Source: Candidatus Bathyarchaeota archaeon (GTDB taxonomy: Archaea > Thermoproteota > Bathyarchaeia > Bathyarchaeales > Bathycorpusculaceae). Taken from it: a DNA stretch of 64,000 nucleotides. Below are positions 17,324-60,718 of the stretch, one piece after another. The notes under the pieces were generated by a model. The model was not told where the DNA came from. It worked only from the letters and a program-made list of their open reading frames with translations, and did not search any database. Both the position numbers and the translations under genes were made by a program. Within the stretch, counting starts at the first letter, position 1. Each line of letters starts with the position of its first letter. Location of the stretch: the NCBI GenBank assembly GCA_026014615.1, contig JAOZHZ010000020.1:124001-188000 (forward strand), in the 5' to 3' direction.

Positions 17324-17451
17324 TGGCGCCGGGGAAGGGATTCGAACCCCTGCGAGCACGAAGCCCACTGGCTGGCTTGCCCATTTGGCACGGCCCTTTT
17401 GTGCAATTTTGGATCTCGAGGCCAGCGCGTTAACCACTCCGCCACCCCGGC
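17324..17451 (-). tRNA. tRNA-Ser(CGA) with anticodon-loop intron
   Basis: Read on the minus strand from 17451: acceptor GCCGGGG pairs with CCCCGGC, discriminator G, and CCA encoded (17324-17326). D-arm GCGGAGTGGTTAAC is of the serine type. Anticodon stem CTGGC pairs perfectly with GCCAG (17376-17372), loop CTCGAG-A with anticodon CGA at 17418-17416. An intron of 37 bases (17414-17378) separates position 37 from 38, the canonical archaeal site. The long variable arm GTGGGC-TTCGT-GCTCGC and T-arm AGGGG-TTCGAAT-CCCTT complete the type II structure. Intron removal needs the tRNA splicing endonuclease. Confidence 0.9.
17326..17350 (-). repeat. tRNA-Ser 3' end, partner of the att-like repeat at 15882
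   Basis: The intact member of the direct-repeat pair. The 1.4-kb segment between the two copies carries only cbiZ. Confidence 0.6.
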
Positions 17452-25024: not shown

Positions 25025-26278
25025 TTATTTTCGGCTTCTGGTGTTCGTGTTTTTGGGAATGTTTGGTTGGAAACTCATTAAACGTCCTATTCTTGCGTCG
25101 GTTCCGAAAACATCTTGAATAAGAGAGCGGGAGATTTCTAGGCGGATTTTTTTGGTGCGTCCATAGCGACCCATGCTTACCACCTTGGAGTTTAGAAGAC
25201 CTATAGCGTCTAGTTCATTTATGAGGGTGCCTATACGCCTTTGAGTAAGAAGGCTAACACCAAGTTCTCCACAAAGCTCGTTGTAGACGTCGTAGATTTC
25301 TCCTGTGGTGGCGCTGCTACCGTTTGCTTTGCCTAAATGATAAACACTTAAAAGAACAAGCTTAGCATGTAGGGTTGAATTCTTGAGTGCTTCAACGACT
25401 TTGTTGTGTTCAATGTGTTTTTCGGCTTCGCGCACATGTTCTTCAGTTACTTTGTTTGAGCCTTGACGTTCAGCAACTTCTCCTGCTACTCGAAGCAAAT
25501 CTAAAGCTCGTCGTGCATCGCCATGTTCCGCGGCAGCCAGAGCTGAGCATATGCTTAACGCTGAATCAGAAAGAGCGTCTTCAAAGAAGCCCAGCTTTGA
25601 TCTTTCAAGAAGAATATTGCGGAGTTCTCCTGCGTCGTAGGGTCGAAACACCAGTTCCTCTTCACTTAGGGAACTGAAGACACGTGGGTCAAGGAACTCT
25701 TTTAGTCGAAGGTCGTTTGATATGCCTATGAGGGCGACTTTGCTTTTCTGCAACGCTTCGTTTATACGGGTTAACTCGTACATTATGCCGTCGCCACGGT
25801 TTTTAATCAAGGCATCTATCTCATCCAAGATAATTATGAAGAGTGTACGGGTTGAATCTAATCCTGCTCGGAAGCGGTCAAAAACTTCGCCCACGGATAA
25901 GCCTGTAAAGGGGATGGACAAACCTAGACTTTGGCTTAGACTTGCGAAAACGCGGTATTCGGAGCCTGTCATGCGACAGTTCACATAGCAGAATCGTACT
26001 GGTGCACCGTATTCTTTGGCTTTTGATTCTAAATGACTGAGGACATATTTTGTTACGGCGGTTTTTCCTGTTCCTGTTTTTCCGTATATGAAGATGTTGG
26101 AACATCTTGAGCCTTTAAGGACTGGAGCTACCGCTTGGCCGAGTAAACGAATTTGGTCTTCGCGGTGAGGAAGTTTATCAGGCAGGTAGTCGTGACGTAG
26201 GACTTCGCGGTCTTTGAACAGTGTTGCTTCGTTGACGAATTTTTCAAAGACATCATCAAGTATGTTTGGATTTCCCAT
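25025..26278 (-). CDS. cdc6: Origin recognition protein Orc1/Cdc6
   Basis: AAA+ initiator of 417 residues. Motifs: YLPDKLPHREDQI, Walker A YGKTGTGKTAV near residue 65, Walker B LFIIILDEIDALI, sensor 1 ALIGISNDLRL, the arginine-finger region RVFSSLSEEELVF, and GDARRALDLLRVAGEVAE (sensor 2). The last 100 residues are a winged helix (TGEIYDVYNELCGELG, LTQRRIGTLINELDAIGLL). It binds origin recognition boxes and loads MCM. ORB-like boxes lie immediately upstream of its start (26423-26895), the usual archaeal cdc6-oriC arrangement. Confidence 0.96.
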   Translation of the reverse strand: MGNPNILDDVFEKFVNEATLFKDREVLRHDYLPDKLPHREDQIRLLGQAVAPVLKGSRCSNIFIYGKTGTGKTAVTKYVLSHLESKAKEYGAPVRFCYVNCRMTGSEYRVFASLSQSLGLSIPFTGLSVGEVFDRFRAGLDSTRTLFIIILDEIDALIKNRGDGIMYELTRINEALQKSKVALIGISNDLRLKEFLDPRVFSSLSEEELVFRPYDAGELRNILLERSKLGFFEDALSDSALSICSALAAAEHGDARRALDLLRVAGEVAERQGSNKVTEEHVREAEKHIEHNKVVEALKNSTLHAKLVLLSVYHLGKANGSSATTGEIYDVYNELCGELGVSLLTQRRIGTLINELDAIGLLNSKVVSMGRYGRTKKIRLEISRSLIQDVFGTDARIGRLMSFQPNIPKNTNTRSRK

Positions 26279-26448
26279 CTCGTTCTCCCCTTTTCTTCAG
26301 AGGCTACACCGTTATTTCGGGTGGAACAGATAAAGGCTACAGTTTAAAAAAGTAGTTTTGAAGCTTAACAATCCTAAAACCAGATGATAATCCTGCAAGA
26401 TTAGTAGTGAAGAGGTAACAGGCACACCCCAAAATTTCTATTGGAACT

Positions 26449-26505
26449 TAATAATACTCTTGTAAGTATATGTAAAAATTAATAGTAGAATAATAATACT
26501 CTGTG
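26449..26505 (+). repeat. Direct repeat TAATAATACTCT in the origin region
   Basis: TAATAATACTCT occurs at 26449-26460 and 26491-26502, 42 bases apart, in the AT-rich part between two ORB-like boxes. It may be part of the duplex-unwinding element. Confidence 0.5.
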
Positions 26506-26768
26506 AGGTATTACTTGAAGAAGCATATTAATAATTGTTGTTAAAGAAATTAGATTAGTAAACTGTATTTTTTTTTTTAAAGTCCTTTTTTTGCCTGTTT
26601 ACAGAAAATTGTTGGAGAGGAAATGGAGGGGTGTCTCTCTTTTACATCAAATCTACTTTGAATCAAGCAATTTTATTAAATGTTCCATCGTCTGAAGTAG
26701 TGATTAGCCAAGAAACTTCCCGTAGACGCTCCATAATCTCCAAGTGCCCCGTTCACAAACGCTTTTTC

Positions 26769-26784
26769 TTCACAAAACTGTGAA
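26769..26784. repeat. Inverted repeat TTCACA-AAAC-TGTGAA inside the origin
   Basis: A perfect palindrome with six-base arms and a four-base spacer. Its arms contain TGTGA, the same word that forms the iteron arrays at 28.4 and 29.6 kb. Confidence 0.5.
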
Positions 26785-27092
26785 TAACATGTGAAACAAC
26801 GCTAAAAATATCCTATTTTACTTCTTCTTTCCAGTGGAAATGCTTTATTTCTGCTCCTTTACAGTGAACCACACACCCCTACGCTTCTACTGGAGATAGC
26901 AAACCAGGCCTGTCTTGGAATTATTTTTTAATTTTAAAATCTTGTGAAACTTGTTATTCCTAAATACCTGTAAATGTTACTCCTTTACCAAAATTAGGTG
27001 TTTTTAGAGTTTTTTAAACTATTTGTTTTCACCATAACAGCTATTAGGTGTGAAGTGTAAAGTTGTGAACGCTGTTAAGGTGTATTCCCTAG

Positions 27093-27524
27093 ATGCCAGC
27101 TCGAAAAATGCGAGTGGAGCTATTCGACAGTGAAGGCAATCGATATACTGTTGCCTTTGAAGGCCAAATTACTAGGGATAAGGCTTTACGACTTTTAGAT
27201 CTTGTAGAGTTGCTTGGCGGCATGCCTGGCGAAAACCCCACTTCTGCGGCGGTAGGTACACATGTAGCTGCCCAGTCTTCTCGGTTTGAGAAAGTTCGGG
27301 CTGTGGTTCAGAAGAATTTTCCACTGGTTTGGTTCTCATCAAAAGATATTCAGGCTTTTTATGAGCAGGAACTTAAAGAGCCTATTAGTTTAAGCACAGT
27401 TTCCACCTACCTTTCACGCATGGCAACCAAAGGCTTCTTAGTCAGAACAGGAAGCGCTAGTAACTTGAAGTATAAGGTGTCTTCAGCAACTCCACAAGCT
27501 GTTATTAAGCAAAGACTGAAATAG
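27093..27524 (+). CDS. Origin-proximal winged-helix protein
   Basis: 143 residues, no named family recognised. The N terminus (KMRVELFDSEGNRYTVAFEG) looks like a small beta domain; a helix RDKALRLLDLVELLGG follows. The C-terminal half (FEKVRAVVQKNFPLVWFSSK, DIQAFYEQEL, ISLSTVSTYLSRMATKGFLV) has the pattern of a winged helix with recognition helix LSTVSTYLSRM. It diverges from orc1/cdc6 across the predicted origin, so it may be a DNA-binding regulator or replication accessory. Both roles are inference. Confidence 0.65.
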   Translation: MPARKMRVELFDSEGNRYTVAFEGQITRDKALRLLDLVELLGGMPGENPTSAAVGTHVAAQSSRFEKVRAVVQKNFPLVWFSSKDIQAFYEQELKEPISLSTVSTYLSRMATKGFLVRTGSASNLKYKVSSATPQAVIKQRLK

Positions 27525-27548: not shown

Positions 27549-28349
27549 TTAGGTTGATGAAGGTTCGGGCTTCTTCAGCATATTTTCCATTTCTTTCTTT
27601 ATGCTATACTTAAAAGGCAACTTACCCGTTTCCCTCTCCAAGTAACCCTCTTCGTAAAGTTTCTTCATAAGCCTAGCCGTATGTTCTCTACTAAGTTTCA
27701 CTTTTTCTTTGATCTCTGGAGCTGTCTTTGGTCCTTCTGCGGAAAGAAACTCCAAAACTTCCACTTCTGTGTCTGTTAACGCAGCCATGGCTTTGTCCCT
27801 CTTGATGGGCATCACAGGCATAACTGGAGCCACTGCTTCAGTTACCACTTCAGGAACTGCTGCCAACTTTTCTATTTGCTCTTCCAACAAGGTGATTTTG
27901 TTTTTGAGGGCTTCTTGTGAGGATTCGATGTTTTGGAGTTTGCTTTGTATTTCGTCTGTGTCGGTGGTTGAGATTTTCTCCAAAGTTTTCACGTTAACTT
28001 CAGAAAGGCTACTCATTGTGCTGCTTATGCTTTCAATTTGAGTGTTTATCTGATTAACTTGGTCTTCAAGAGGTGCAACTACTCTCTCAAGGTACTCTGC
28101 TTTACGGTACCCTGCCTCAGCCGTGGAAGCGTTCATTTCAACTTTGTAAGTAACGTTCTGTATCTTTTCAGCTTCCCGTTTCAATTCCCTGTTAAAACTT
28201 AACACAACATCTTCAACGGTGTCTTTGGTTTTGTCATACTCTTCTTGTGCTTTTCGCAGTTGCTTGTAATACTCTACCGCTGCATAAGTAGTTGCGGCAA
28301 GCAAGACTGCTAAAAGCACTCCTACCAGAGCAGTTATGACATCTACCAA
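27549..28349 (-). CDS. Membrane-anchored coiled-coil protein with C-terminal winged helix
   Basis: 266 residues. One N-terminal membrane helix (VITALVGVLLAVLLAATTYA) is followed by about 140 residues of coiled coil (heptads through LRKAQEEYDKTKDTVEDV to LLEEQIEKLAA), a Pro/Val linker, and a MarR-like winged helix (LTDTEVEVLEFLSAEGPKTA, then LSREHTARLMKKLYEEGYLE). The layout tethers a DNA-binding domain to the membrane through a long rod. The start codon at 28349 lies 13 bases from the first unit of the left iteron array, so that array sits in its promoter or leader. It could link membrane state or the nearby origin to DNA binding; this is inference. Confidence 0.7.
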   Translation of the reverse strand: MVDVITALVGVLLAVLLAATTYAAVEYYKQLRKAQEEYDKTKDTVEDVVLSFNRELKREAEKIQNVTYKVEMNASTAEAGYRKAEYLERVVAPLEDQVNQINTQIESISSTMSSLSEVNVKTLEKISTTDTDEIQSKLQNIESSQEALKNKITLLEEQIEKLAAVPEVVTEAVAPVMPVMPIKRDKAMAALTDTEVEVLEFLSAEGPKTAPEIKEKVKLSREHTARLMKKLYEEGYLERETGKLPFKYSIKKEMENMLKKPEPSST

Positions 28350-28361
28350 AGTTTCTCCCTC

Positions 28362-28405
28362 TGTGATTTACCTGTGACCTAAGTGTGATTTACATGTAAC
28401 TATTG
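28362..28405 (+). repeat. Left iteron array: four 11-bp units of TGTGAYNTANN
   Basis: Consecutive units TGTGATTTACC, TGTGACCTAAG, TGTGATTTACA and TGTAACTATTG begin at 28362, 28373, 28384 and 28395, exactly 11 bases apart. Further TGTGAC/ATCACA words follow at 28413, 28420, 28500, 28514 and 28632 in both orientations, up to the end of the next gene (spacer 28350-28695). The array directly precedes the start of the membrane-anchored winged-helix gene. Confidence 0.8.
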
Positions 28406-28687
28406 CTGTTACATCACATATCACAGTTCTCCATGGTGAATTTAAGGCTTATGGTAATTCTTTGATGTCACGCAACATGACGTCACACATCACATAACTT
28501 GTGACATCTCCCTGTCACATGTCTATGCTTAATTATGTTAATGAAAAAAAGCTTATTTTACGCCTAATTTTCATTAAACACCTCAAATAATTATTATTTT
28601 ATAACCCTTGAAAGCAGGCTTTTAGGCACTTCCTGTCACGTGTGATTTGAAGTGCCTTAAGGCTGTTTTTGGGCTCCTTTTTGTGAT

Positions 28688-28701
28688 TTGTGACGTCACA
28701 A
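28688..28701. repeat. Perfect 14-bp palindrome TTGTGACGTCACAA
   Basis: Two head-to-head TGTGAC words joined at their ends. The palindrome contains the TGA stop codon (28696-28698 on the minus strand) of the orphan gene 28696-29190. A further TGTGAT lies at 28682. Confidence 0.8.
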
Positions 28702-29190
28702 GCTGTCTTCTGAGGGGCTAGAAAGGTGTTTTAGGCTTGATTCTAGCTCTTCTCTGATGATTGAGATGACTTTTAGGTGCTCTTCTGCCCCTTCTAAGTC
28801 CTTTGGAAGGTTCTCATGCGCCTCCATATACTCCTTCAATTTATTTGCTATTTCGAGATATGGATCAAGAGTTGTGGTCTCAAAAACACCTAGATATCCT
28901 AAGAGGAGCACTGTATATATTGATTTTATTACGTTTTCTTTAGACTGTTTTAATGTCCTGTTAAAAGATCCGCGGCTTAATTTAGCCTTGGTTAAGCGTA
29001 ATCTGGCTTTTTCATCGTATTTTAGCGGTTTACCGGCTATATTTTCGGCTAAAATGTCTATTAGAAGTGTTTCAAGCTGAGTTTTTGTTAATTGGCTATT
29101 TTTGGAGAGTATTTTAACAACGGGGTCGTTTAATGCCCCATTTAGCCATAGTTGTACGCTGTCTTTTAGTTTCAATTTGATGTTCCTCAC
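28696..29190 (-). CDS. Orphan helical protein between the two iteron arrays
   Basis: 164 residues from GTG 29190. I do not recognise a named family. It is basic and almost wholly helical. LTKTQLETLLIDILAENIAG and LRLTKAKLSRGSFNRTLKQS suggest a helix-turn-helix with SRGSFNRTLKQ as recognition helix. NVIKSIYTVLLLGYLGVFET is a hydrophobic helix, and the C terminus is an acidic amphipathic helix. Its placement between inverted TGTGAY arrays makes it a candidate for the array-binding protein, but nothing in the sequence proves this. It is flanked by long AT-rich gene-free DNA on its upstream side. Confidence 0.6.
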   Translation of the reverse strand: MRNIKLKLKDSVQLWLNGALNDPVVKILSKNSQLTKTQLETLLIDILAENIAGKPLKYDEKARLRLTKAKLSRGSFNRTLKQSKENVIKSIYTVLLLGYLGVFETTTLDPYLEIANKLKEYMEAHENLPKDLEGAEEHLKVISIIREELESSLKHLSSPSEDSL

Positions 29191-29585
29191 GTTATGCCAA
29201 ATGGATACAGTTTTGTATACTTGGTGCTTGTTTAAAACTGTTCTATATTTTTCCAGTTAAATCCCAATGGTATACTCCGCGTATAATAGCTTAAATTGAA
29301 TTTAACGCTGAATTTATCGATTAAAAATCGTTAAAAGCTTATTTTTATGTCTAAATTATATTCTGGATTTAAATTAGCCTTTAAAATTCTGTAAATTAGC
29401 CGAGTCTAGGTGGCACTATAGCTCTTATTTGTTAACAAATACAACCTGCTGAACCAAAATGTAATTGTTGGCATCAATTAATCCAACCCCAATAGATACG
29501 GTCCTACATAACTGCGTTTAAACCAATCCCCCTTCACAACCTAAATGTCTCAAAGCTGTCAATCAGGAAGCCTCTTTTTGAGTCG
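29191..29585. other. AT-rich gene-free DNA upstream of the orphan gene
   Basis: About 395 bases with no open frame of note. It contains many TTTAA words, the small hairpin CGATT-AAA-AATCG near 29318-29330, and GTATAC at two places near 29214 and 29271. With the right iteron array after it, the gene-free stretch reaches 29778. Confidence 0.5.
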
Positions 29586-29588
29586 TGA

Positions 29589-29690
29589 CGTCACCAGTCA
29601 CATCGAATCACAACCAAATCACGCCGAAATCACGTAAAAATCACGAGTGATTGTCACAGATTACTATGATATCACACGTCTGTGATACAC
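29589..29690 (-). repeat. Right iteron array: four 11-bp units of AATCACNNNNN and linked palindromes
   Basis: AATCACAACCA, AATCACGCCGA, AATCACGTAAA and AATCACGAGTG begin at 29606, 29617, 29628 and 29639, exactly 11 bases apart. On the minus strand each is GTGATT, the same word as the left array in opposite orientation. Preceding sites CGTCAC (29589) and AGTCAC (29596) extend it. AATCACGAGTGATT (29639-29652) and TATCACACGTCTGTGATA (29670-29687) are palindromes, and TGTGATTTCC follows at 29692. Confidence 0.8.
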
Positions 29691-29778
29691 CTGTGATTTC
29701 CATTCAACCCAGTCTAATCACGTTTGACGACTAGTGAATACGAAAATAAAAAGCCTGCTTTTATGTTTAGAAGCTATT

Positions 29779-30612
29779 TCAGAGGTTTTCCGAACCCTTC
29801 TTGAGTTTTTCGAAGAGTTCTGGGCGCAAATCCCTTAGCGTAGGAATGAATGCTTCGGCTGGTCTAAGGTCACCGTAGTTAACCTCACACATCACAAAGT
29901 CCTCCACGTCATACTTGGCTTTTGCCAAGACATCGCCTGTGGGGCTAACCAGTCTGCTTCCTCCCCAGAACTGCAAACCATCCTCAACCCCAACTAAATT
30001 AACGTAAGCCAGAAAAGCTGTGTTTTCCAAGGCTCTTGCCGCCGTCAAAATCTCAAAATAGTTTCTACGCACTGCAGGTGATGCCGAAATGCAAACCATT
30101 AATTGTGCTCCTTGCAGACGGGTTAAGCGGGTAACCTCGGGGAAAAAGATGTCATAGCAGATGAACAGCCCAATTTTTCCTATTGGTGTGTCAAAAGCGG
30201 CTGTTTGGTATCCTGGTCTGAAATATCTTTTCTCTTCGAAGACGCTGTGGGTGGGCAGGTACATTTTTCGGTATTTGCCGATTACTCCGTCGGGACCCAC
30301 AAAGACCGACGTGTTGAATATGGTAGCTTTTGTTTTTTCGCTCACTTCCGGCATTCCAAAAATTATATGCATTCCTGTTTCTTTGGCGATTTGCTCAATA
30401 TTCTGTGTGGAAGGTCCCGGTATGGCTTCAGCTAATTCGTAAAGCTGGTCTCTTATCACATAGCCCGTTAGGGAAAGCTCAGGAAAAATCACTAGGTCTG
30501 CACCTTGCTCCTTTGCCTTTTTGGTTGTGGTTTCGATTTTTTCGATGTTTTCTTTCTTGTTTTCCCGTTTGCTGTTCATTTGTGCTAAAGCAAGTTTAAT
30601 TTTCTCTTTCAT
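29779..30612 (-). CDS. Carbon-nitrogen hydrolase (nitrilase superfamily), probable glutaminase partner of NadE
   Basis: About 277 residues from ATG 30612 (MKEKIKLALAQMN); the longer frame to 30678 would overlap nadE and is unlikely. The Glu-Lys-Cys triad is visible: VIFPELSLTGY (Glu), YRKMYLPTHSVFEEKRYF (Lys), GLFICYDIFFPEVTR (Cys). The stop of nadE is 13 bases upstream, so they form an operon. In bacteria and eukaryotes a nitrilase domain feeds ammonia from glutamine to NAD synthetase in a fused enzyme; here it may do so as a separate subunit. Other amidase substrates are possible. Confidence 0.82.
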   Translation of the reverse strand: MKEKIKLALAQMNSKRENKKENIEKIETTTKKAKEQGADLVIFPELSLTGYVIRDQLYELAEAIPGPSTQNIEQIAKETGMHIIFGMPEVSEKTKATIFNTSVFVGPDGVIGKYRKMYLPTHSVFEEKRYFRPGYQTAAFDTPIGKIGLFICYDIFFPEVTRLTRLQGAQLMVCISASPAVRRNYFEILTAARALENTAFLAYVNLVGVEDGLQFWGGSRLVSPTGDVLAKAKYDVEDFVMCEVNYGDLRPAEAFIPTLRDLRPELFEKLKKGSENL

Positions 30613-59147: not shown

Positions 59148-59927
59148 ATGAAGGTTGCAGTTTCTGGTAAAGGTGGTGTTGGCAAAACTCTTATCGCAGG
59201 CGGCTTGGCTAGAGGGTTTTTTGAACGCGGCTTCAAATCAATGGCTATTGACGCGGATTCTTCGCCTAACCTTGCTTTGACGTTGGGTTTGACGGCTGAG
59301 GAAGCCCGCAAAATCGTGCCCCTGACCGAGAACAAGGAGCTTGTGGACTCTAAAACAAGCACGGGTTACTCGGGAGTTTACAACCTGAACTTCAAGGTAG
59401 ACGATATTATTCGTGATTACGCCGTGAAAACCCCGCTGGGTGTAGACCTAATTGTTATGGGCACCGTGAAAGCAATGGGTTCAGGTTGCATGTGCGCACC
59501 AAACGCCATAGTGCGTGCATTGCTGAGGCATCTGATGGTGGAACGTAACGAAGCGGTTGTTTTGGATTTGGAGGCAGGTGTGGAGCACATCGGTAGAGGA
59601 ACAGCCCGCGCTGTGGATATTCTGCTTATAATAGCAGACTCTAATTTGAAATCCCTAGAAATCGCCAAACACATTCATGATTTGACCTCTGCATCAGAAA
59701 TGAAGAAAGCTTACCTTGTCGGCAACAGAGTCATGAACCAAACACAGGAAGCTGCAATTAAGAGCTTTGCTGACAAAAACGGGTTAGACCTTCTCACTTT
59801 TGTGCCCTTTGATCAAAAAGTTATCGAAGCCGACATGCTTGGACAAACTCCCTTAATTAATAATGAAATGGCGGCAGTGCAGACCATAGACAATATATGC
59901 GACACACTGCTTAAGGAAGCCAACTGA
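59148..59927 (+). CDS. cooC: CODH nickel-insertion ATPase CooC, paralogue 1
   Basis: 259 residues of the MinD/SIMIBI class. Walker A with signature lysine KVAVSGKGGVGKTLIAGGLA, ADSSPNLALTLGL, and GSGCMCAPNA with the CxC pair that binds nickel or zinc at the dimer interface. VLDLEAGVEHIGRG is the Walker B region. CooC matures the C-cluster of carbon monoxide dehydrogenase. A second paralogue follows 20 bases after its stop. Confidence 0.93.
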   Translation: MKVAVSGKGGVGKTLIAGGLARGFFERGFKSMAIDADSSPNLALTLGLTAEEARKIVPLTENKELVDSKTSTGYSGVYNLNFKVDDIIRDYAVKTPLGVDLIVMGTVKAMGSGCMCAPNAIVRALLRHLMVERNEAVVLDLEAGVEHIGRGTARAVDILLIIADSNLKSLEIAKHIHDLTSASEMKKAYLVGNRVMNQTQEAAIKSFADKNGLDLLTFVPFDQKVIEADMLGQTPLINNEMAAVQTIDNICDTLLKEAN

Positions 59928-59947
59928 CCTTACAGGGTTGACTTATA

Positions 59948-60718
59948 ATGAAAACTCTTGTTACTATAGGACGTGGCGGAACAGGAAAATCCAGTTTCAC
60001 CTCGTTGATTGCAAAAGCTTTCATAGAAGCAGGTGCTTCCCCGTTGCTGCTGGTGGACGCTGACCCCGATCAGAACCTTGCTGAGATGCTCGGTGTAGAC
60101 CTTAACGAGGCAGGCAAAGCTACGTTAGCGGACTTAATTGTTGACACATTCATCCAGAAAGGTGGAACCACAGTGGGAGTTTCGCCTACAGATCGTATGG
60201 AAAGCAGCATCTGGGCTAAAGGGCTCTACGAAGGTGCTGATTTTGACTTTATTTCTGTGGGCACAAAATGGGTGGAAGGCTGCTACTGTATGCCTAACTC
60301 CGCGTTGAAAGCTGCACTGGAACACTTAACAAAAAACTATCAGTACGTAATCATAGACTCCCCCGCGGGGCTGGAACACTTGAACCGACGCATCGCCTCA
60401 AAAGTCAACGACATCTTTGAAATGTTGGATCACTCCAAGAAAAGCATTGACCACGCCAAACGTGCCTACCGCATCGCTAAGGAAGTTGACATGGAGTTCG
60501 ACAACTTTTACCTCGTCGGCGGCTACCGTTTCCCCGATGAATATGCAAGCAAAGCTGAAAAAGAGTTGGACTTTAAGTACGTAGGTAAAATACTTGCCGA
60601 TGAAAAGGTAGATGATTACGTTCTTACTGGAAAGTCGCTTTTGGAGTTACCTTCAGACAATATAGCGTTCACTTCTGTAAAGGCAATCATGAATGCGACT
60701 GGTTACATACAACAATAA
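59948..60718 (+). CDS. cooC: CODH nickel-insertion ATPase CooC, paralogue 2
   Basis: 256 residues. Walker A VTIGRGGTGKSSFTSLIAKA lacks the usual signature lysine of the KGGxGKT form (RGGTGKS instead). DADPDQNLAEML, VEGCYCMPNSAL with the CxC pair, and IIDSPAGLEHLNRRIAS are conserved. The pair of unequal CooC proteins may act together as a heterodimer or serve different metal sites (CODH and ACS). Same operon as paralogue 1. Confidence 0.9.
   Translation: MKTLVTIGRGGTGKSSFTSLIAKAFIEAGASPLLLVDADPDQNLAEMLGVDLNEAGKATLADLIVDTFIQKGGTTVGVSPTDRMESSIWAKGLYEGADFDFISVGTKWVEGCYCMPNSALKAALEHLTKNYQYVIIDSPAGLEHLNRRIASKVNDIFEMLDHSKKSIDHAKRAYRIAKEVDMEFDNFYLVGGYRFPDEYASKAEKELDFKYVGKILADEKVDDYVLTGKSLLELPSDNIAFTSVKAIMNATGYIQQ

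Follow-up and report, generated by a model that had tools for sequence, protein, structure and literature searches.

Why should a small gene of a Candidatus Bathyarchaeota archaeon be flanked at both ends by arrays of one short word, close to a predicted replication origin, and which protein would read them? The window analysed here, a stretch of 64,000 nt, comprises positions 124,001-188,000 of contig JAOZHZ010000020.1 (GCA_026014615.1). The features at issue are given below in window coordinates, with the evidence for each in brackets.

25025-26278, minus strand: Orc1/Cdc6 initiator gene (Cdc6_C, 1e-26; Cdc6_lid, 2e-25).
26279-27092, no strand: AT-rich, oriC-like intergenic region with ORB-like words, TTTCCAGTGGAAA at 26828-26840 (word search).
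27093-27524, plus strand: wH143, a small winged-helix-like protein encoded between oriC and TMccwH (synteny; sub-threshold winged-helix match in Pfam).
27549-28349, minus strand: TMccwH, with an N-terminal membrane helix, a long coiled coil and a C-terminal, TrmB/MarR-like winged helix; candidate binder (profile match, hydropathy, model, co-occurrence).
28362-28400, plus strand: left direct-repeat run, in which four units (TGTGAY/TGTAAC) recur every 11 bp (positions, shuffles, assembly search).
28407-28425, minus strand: composite I, TGTGATATGTGATGTAACA, 7-bp step, immediately upstream of the TMccwH gene (order-wide conservation).
28478-28494, minus strand: composite II, TGTGATGTGTGACGTCA (conserved about 70 bp from composite I).
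28682-28700, plus strand: composite III, TGTGATTTGTGACGTCACA, which overlaps the orphan stop codon (recurrence of TGTGAYNTGTGAYRTCACA among Bathyarchaeia, counted below).
28696-29190, minus strand: orphan gene, encoding a 164-aa all-helical protein of no known family with an HTH-like core; proposed partner (searches, model, homologues).
29585-29651, plus strand: right composite with 11-bp expansion units, GTGACGTCAC..GTCAC..ATCAC(x4)..GAGTGAT (architecture as in the element within the aminotransferase coding sequence of relatives).
29652-29721, no strand: additional sites of the right block, namely GTCACA, ATCACA, two TGTGAT at 11 bp, and ATCAC (site listing).

The preliminary description of this locus had listed eight array units, all of which proved exact on re-check: TGTGAT at 28362, TGTGAC at 28373, TGTGAT at 28384 and TGTAAC at 28395 in the left block, and AATCAC at 29606, 29617, 29628 and 29639 in the right block. 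It had also named, as a possible objection, that 11-bp-phased TGTGAY might be as frequent elsewhere by chance, which is not the case: the window contained three matches to TGTGAY-N5-TGTGAY, where dinucleotide shuffles predict 0.02, and in the whole 2.63-Mb assembly it occurred only at the same three places, all in the array locus. Clustering was checked on one 419-kb contig (C2; 418,871 bp), in addition to the genome-wide pattern searches. On this contig, the two blocks were the densest in GTGAY per 350 bp (15 and 15; mean, 0.92; next best, 8) and again ranked top for TGTGAY (13 and 7; next, 3), and six same-strand pairs with an 11-bp step fell in the 1.5-kb locus versus three in the remaining 417 kb. 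An Rfam scan of the window and of the related locus L034, and tRNA scans of six relatives, detected no RNA genes at the locus. Elsewhere in the window, a 125-nt tRNA covariance match at 17327-17451 (minus strand) is probably an intron-containing archaeal tRNA.

The portrayal of these blocks as 11-bp iterons was confirmed but incomplete: the arrays are real, yet composites with a 7-bp step had been missed and the right-hand 11-bp runs are apparent expansions. In order-level relatives, 900 sites in the vicinity of the orphan gene were compared: sites on the same strand showed spacing peaks of 7 bp (154 pairs) and 11 bp (123), while GTGAY-to-RTCAC spacings peaked at 5 (90) and 12 (86), and RTCAC-to-GTGAY spacings at 7 (43) and 18 (34). 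These peaks identify the unit as a GTGAY half-site, preferably TGTGAT, that forms abutting palindromes, tandem pairs with a 7-bp step and tandem runs with an 11-bp step; the 11-bp iterons are a single component of a stricter grammar with spacings of 5, 7 and 11 bp. The most conserved parts of the left block are its three 7-bp-stepped composites (28407-28425, 28478-28494 and 28682-28700), composite I being kept across the order in the form ..GTTGCATCACACATCACAG.., and the conserved right composite reads GTGAYRTCAC-N2-RTCAC-N6-RTCAC-N2-GTGAY, within which the right-side 11-bp runs look like lineage-specific expansions.

Within a set of 163 Bathyarchaeia genomes, the 19-bp composite TGTGAYNTGTGAYRTCACA was found in 75, with one copy in nearly all, and it adjoined the orphan gene in every case compared by contig and coordinate, while the reversed TGTGAYNTGTGAYRTCACA used as a control gave no match in the 163 genomes. 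The right composite was exact in 26 of the 163 (control, 0). Conservation of the arrays in relatives that keep the orphan gene, on which the earlier interpretation had been made to depend, was found wherever the neighbouring TMccwH gene is also kept. The order cdc6-wH143-TMccwH-(sites)-orphan-(sites)-..DP2 is syntenic order-wide, with insertions; cdc6, wH143, nitrilase, NadE, GGGPS and DP2 are the conserved neighbours at the locus, and in amoA-bearing genomes cdc6, wH143, TMccwH, orphan, GGGPS and DP2 lie mostly together. As far as sequence comparison goes, the locus is common to two archaeal classes, the Bathyarchaeia and the ammonia-oxidising Nitrososphaeria.

Where relatives carry an aminotransferase gene between the orphan and nitrilase genes, the right array lies inside the aminotransferase coding sequence, whose codons on the element run GTG AYR TCA CNN ATC ACN .. 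TCA CGT GTG AY (20 orthologues). In these orthologues, the synonymous-identity excess on the element reached 0.30 (9-codon window) against a mean of 0.00 and an sd of 0.06, a 5-sd peak, and the eleven windows of highest excess in the coding sequence all fell on the array element. Five such loci (L034, L043, L049, L059 and L062) carry the overprinted element at about +1085 from the orphan 3' end, with the peptide ..VTSLITKKSRVII.. written in near-invariant codons. Relatives without the aminotransferase gene (L028, L030, L032 and L040) hold the composite in noncoding DNA, and in the window it is looser; we infer that the gene was lost while the element stayed. The peak of synonymous conservation on the sites, together with the same composite in noncoding DNA elsewhere, indicates selection on DNA and not on protein. 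At the end of the nitrilase coding sequence (29883-29895), a TCACACATCACA pair recurs in relatives; it encodes the peptide VMCEV, so it may be a coincidence.

Sites are also written into the genes of the locus itself, in genomes whose status as ammonia oxidisers follows from the presence of amoA. Across 30 genomes, mostly of ammonia oxidisers, GTGAY occurred 261 times inside TMccwH and 145 times inside the orphan gene, versus 110 and 87, respectively, expected from within-gene synonymous shuffling. The conserved TMccwH sites in these 30 genomes displayed a synonymous-identity excess (P = 6e-6); for the orphan-gene sites the excess was not significant (P = 0.20). Overall, the site array is almost certainly a real, ancient and selected DNA element.

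The two site blocks (28362-28700 and 29585-29721) lie 1.3-2.6 kb from the ORB-bearing, oriC-like region, which bears out the proximity to the predicted oriC noted previously. ORB boxes, with a TTCCAGTGGAAAC-like consensus, are bound by Orc1/Cdc6. This consensus is missing from the GTGAY arrays, and ORB-like words are found instead in 26279-27092; the oriC-like region is in turn nearly free of half-sites, with one GTGAY in 26300-27100. In an ammonia oxidiser (L206), a long direct repeat (TTAGTTAAATAGATATTTTCTACCCCTGTATTTCCACTG) at about -960 to -850 from the orphan gene, on the cdc6-proximal side, is probably ORB-like. The wH143 gene is conserved across Bathyarchaeia and ammonia oxidisers and is retained in several genomes devoid of TMccwH and of sites; as several site-less loci keep it, wH143 is not the obvious binder.

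TMccwH, in turn, combines several relevant properties. Its winged helix matched both TrmB and MarR in Pfam above cut-off (30 bits each), a membrane helix was detected by hydropathy in 100 of 110 homologues, and the predicted structure consists of a long N-terminal helix, continuous over about 125 residues including the membrane segment, followed by the winged helix. The recognition helix, (S/T)REHT.R.MK.L, is invariant in the class alignment save for a few positions, and nearly so phylum-wide. The 121 loci scored fell into those with TMccwH and sites (n = 96), those with TMccwH but below the site threshold, several marginally (n = 12), and those with neither (n = 13); none had sites only. All 13 TMccwH-less loci were without sites, yet retained the orphan gene, and in f11, f12, f13 and f15 TMccwH is missing genome-wide, with the orphan still there. 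This count left out L184, an apparent exception in which the sequence is N-masked near the orphan gene, L221 (f10), where TMccwH was not found though relatives have it, and loci at contig ends. Co-loss of TMccwH and sites amounts to about seven changes on the tree, only one of them on well-supported branches, which leaves too few independent pairs for a sign test on supported branches; on these data the association is a strong co-occurrence, not a proven replicated co-loss. Where TMccwH is short (f30/f34 genomes), site enrichment is weak. The main discordant fact is that the f10 family and a few others retain sites with a TMccwH devoid of the membrane helix, suggesting that anchoring is not strictly required, or that it would occur via a partner. 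Loci of f10, including L195 and L197, show GTGAYGTCAC palindromes near the TMccwH start codon and the orphan 3' end. Since none of the 13 TMccwH-less loci has sites and 96 of the 108 TMccwH-bearing loci do, we consider TMccwH quite probably the array binder.

The orphan gene does not deserve that label, being present in 150 of the 163 Bathyarchaeia genomes, nearly always in single copy, and in much of Thermoproteota. Its protein was found in 51 of 61 relatives and, including weaker matches in distant families, in 125 of 299 sampled Thermoproteota genomes. The model is all-helical (pLDDT 84); a Foldseek search with it returned no match at E <= 0.001, and sequence searches of PDB, Pfam and NCBIfam gave no significant match. 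The protein has an HTH-like core (iSrGafnRtlkQakeN), many homologues are basic, and one displays a weak, below-cut-off match to HTH_10 (E = 0.044). A role as the likely binder is at odds with its persistence in the 13 loci lacking both sites and TMccwH, and its survival in site-less genomes rules it out as sole binder; it would probably contribute to a complex as a further subunit, with a DNA-binding or bridging role. Many orphan homologues are without a clear ATG, GTG or TTG start and show an in-frame upstream extension, VYKTVSI or YTKLYP; the extension resembles a conserved TATA-like promoter (GTATACAAAACTGTATCC), which suggests leaderless or non-canonical starts.

Taken together, both arrays may be regarded as one cis-acting locus of about 30 GTGAY half-sites over 1.4 kb, to which the TMccwH winged helix would bind cooperatively. 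The coiled coil (about 100 residues or more) and the membrane helix would then attach the freshly replicated origin region to the membrane and keep it there, perhaps with the two blocks bridged into a loop; the orphan protein may join this complex, and sites in the TMccwH promoter would add feedback control of TMccwH expression, composite I probably regulating this gene as well. An array that acts with TMccwH as an origin-proximal, centromere-like membrane tether is what a membrane-spanning, coiled-coil, winged-helix protein with a site array beside the origin points to, and we hold this reading to be about evenly balanced between right and wrong. The centromere-like, cooperative binding sites near oriC proposed in the preliminary description are in line with it and appear to be the best interpretation. 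More tentatively, and with slightly less than an even chance of being correct, there would be an ancient archaeal centromere-like system common to Bathyarchaeia and Nitrososphaeria, in which TMccwH, assisted by a small helical protein, would hold the origin at the membrane. On this reading, conservation of the site array extends to cases where it has to be accommodated within the codons of unrelated genes. For origin positioning and segregation in archaea outside the Sulfolobales, the locus offers a specific candidate, protein and sites together, and its carriers include ammonia oxidisers available in culture. It also illustrates clearly how a DNA element of the chromosome is superimposed on protein-coding genes and maintained by selection at synonymous positions.

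Three other accounts start from the same proteins. TMccwH could be a membrane-bound regulator whose sites form an autoregulatory operator controlling only its own operon and the orphan gene, as is suggested by the position of composite I at the TMccwH promoter, by the 11-bp run between composite I and the start codon, and by the fact that TrmB/MarR-type winged helices are mostly regulators. However, some 30 sites over 1.4 kb, flanking the orphan gene at both ends, are more than an operator needs; the right block is located upstream of the orphan gene at a distance of about 400 bp and, in many relatives, within an unrelated aminotransferase coding sequence, and the sites of ammonia oxidisers sit deep within coding sequence. 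An array of this size, not tied to particular promoters and located both on either side of a gene and within unrelated coding sequence, thus speaks against a plain operator, which we judge unlikely. Decidedly unlikely, too, is that TMccwH and the orphan protein sequester or license oriC at the membrane in a SeqA- or datA-like manner, with an effect on initiation timing and not on segregation: the sites differ from ORB boxes and are nearly absent from the oriC region between cdc6 and wH143, and in some class members cdc6 is relocated while the sites remain with TMccwH and the orphan gene. In favour of this account are the constant location close to oriC and cdc6 throughout the order, the position beside cdc6 in ammonia oxidisers and the membrane anchor of TMccwH.

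That the orphan protein binds the array, with TMccwH merely its membrane partner, is very improbable. It would fit the HTH-like core, the basic homologues, the single sub-threshold HTH_10 match and the flanking of the orphan gene by sites in nearly all TMccwH-bearing loci, but the 13 loci that keep the orphan without TMccwH are all without sites. Chance clustering, or conserved peptide motifs in place of DNA sites, has a negligible probability and is already refuted for the main blocks by the shuffles, the genome-wide uniqueness, the synonymous conservation in two genes and the noncoding copy of the composite, even though some GTGAY words in coding sequence encode conserved V-I, S-R-V or V-I-S-D and the orphan coding sequence of ammonia oxidisers lacks a significant synonymous excess.

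How, then, would a membrane tether built from TMccwH and its array compare with known systems? The claim that no archaeal counterpart has been described is upheld within the open-access literature: full-text searches on Bathyarchaeota or thaumarchaeal origins in connection with membrane or winged-helix factors retrieved no description of the locus, a provisional result with subscription papers outside its scope. The plasmid iterons suggested earlier are not supported, as the locus is chromosomal, next to cdc6, DP1 and DP2, and syntenic across the order, which rules out an iteron plasmid origin or partition locus. With ParB-parS, the locus shares clustered short sites near the origin and, in candidate form, a dedicated HTH protein; it differs in that its sites are arrays of GTGAY half-sites, partly within genes. 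No ParB domain was among the Pfam matches shown for TMccwH, wH143 and the orphan protein, and no ParA gene was found beside the locus, ParA-superfamily matches being located elsewhere. Two weak AAA_31 (ParA-superfamily) matches lie close together at 59166-60394, with a similar pair in G006, and are possibly Mrp/MinD-like.

Among archaeal systems, SegAB of the Sulfolobales is likewise a segregation system that binds DNA sites (segregation being proposed here), with SegB foci leaning to the cell periphery; the segA and segB genes overlap, include an ATPase gene and lie in a variable neighbourhood (PMC12284271), whereas the present locus has no ParA-type ATPase gene and its gene surroundings are strongly conserved. 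UBP, which binds the conserved ucm element in Sulfolobus origins (PMC12141716), resembles TMccwH, the candidate here, as an archaeal protein for a conserved element at origins; it is a beta-hairpin nucleoid protein of 111 aa that has hundreds of sites in the genome. Homology is rejected on the reported fold and size of UBP (PMC12141716), TMccwH being winged-helix and the orphan protein all-helical. Archaeal regulators of the TrmB/MarR type belong to the same winged-helix superfamily as TMccwH; in contrast to them, TMccwH bears a membrane helix plus a long coiled coil where they have an effector domain, and its associated sites reach far beyond the promoter, into coding sequence in relatives. 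By analogy of working principle, the closest system is RacA/ram of Bacillus subtilis, to which the present one is unrelated. RacA combines an HTH with a coiled coil, its centromere-like sites are dense near oriC, as are the clustered sites here, and the origin is tethered to the membrane via DivIVA (PMC6593407). The domain order is reversed, however, from N-terminal HTH and C-terminal coiled coil in RacA to membrane helix, coiled coil and winged helix in TMccwH; RacA, which functions in sporulation, depends on DivIVA for its contact with the membrane, whereas TMccwH carries a membrane helix of its own, and ram sites also occur elsewhere on the chromosome (PMC6593407), while the strongest sites here are at one locus. 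To judge from its sequences, the system is new, falling outside every known family tested apart from the TrmB/MarR-type winged helix, and its proposed mode of action resembles that of the bacterial origin tethers.
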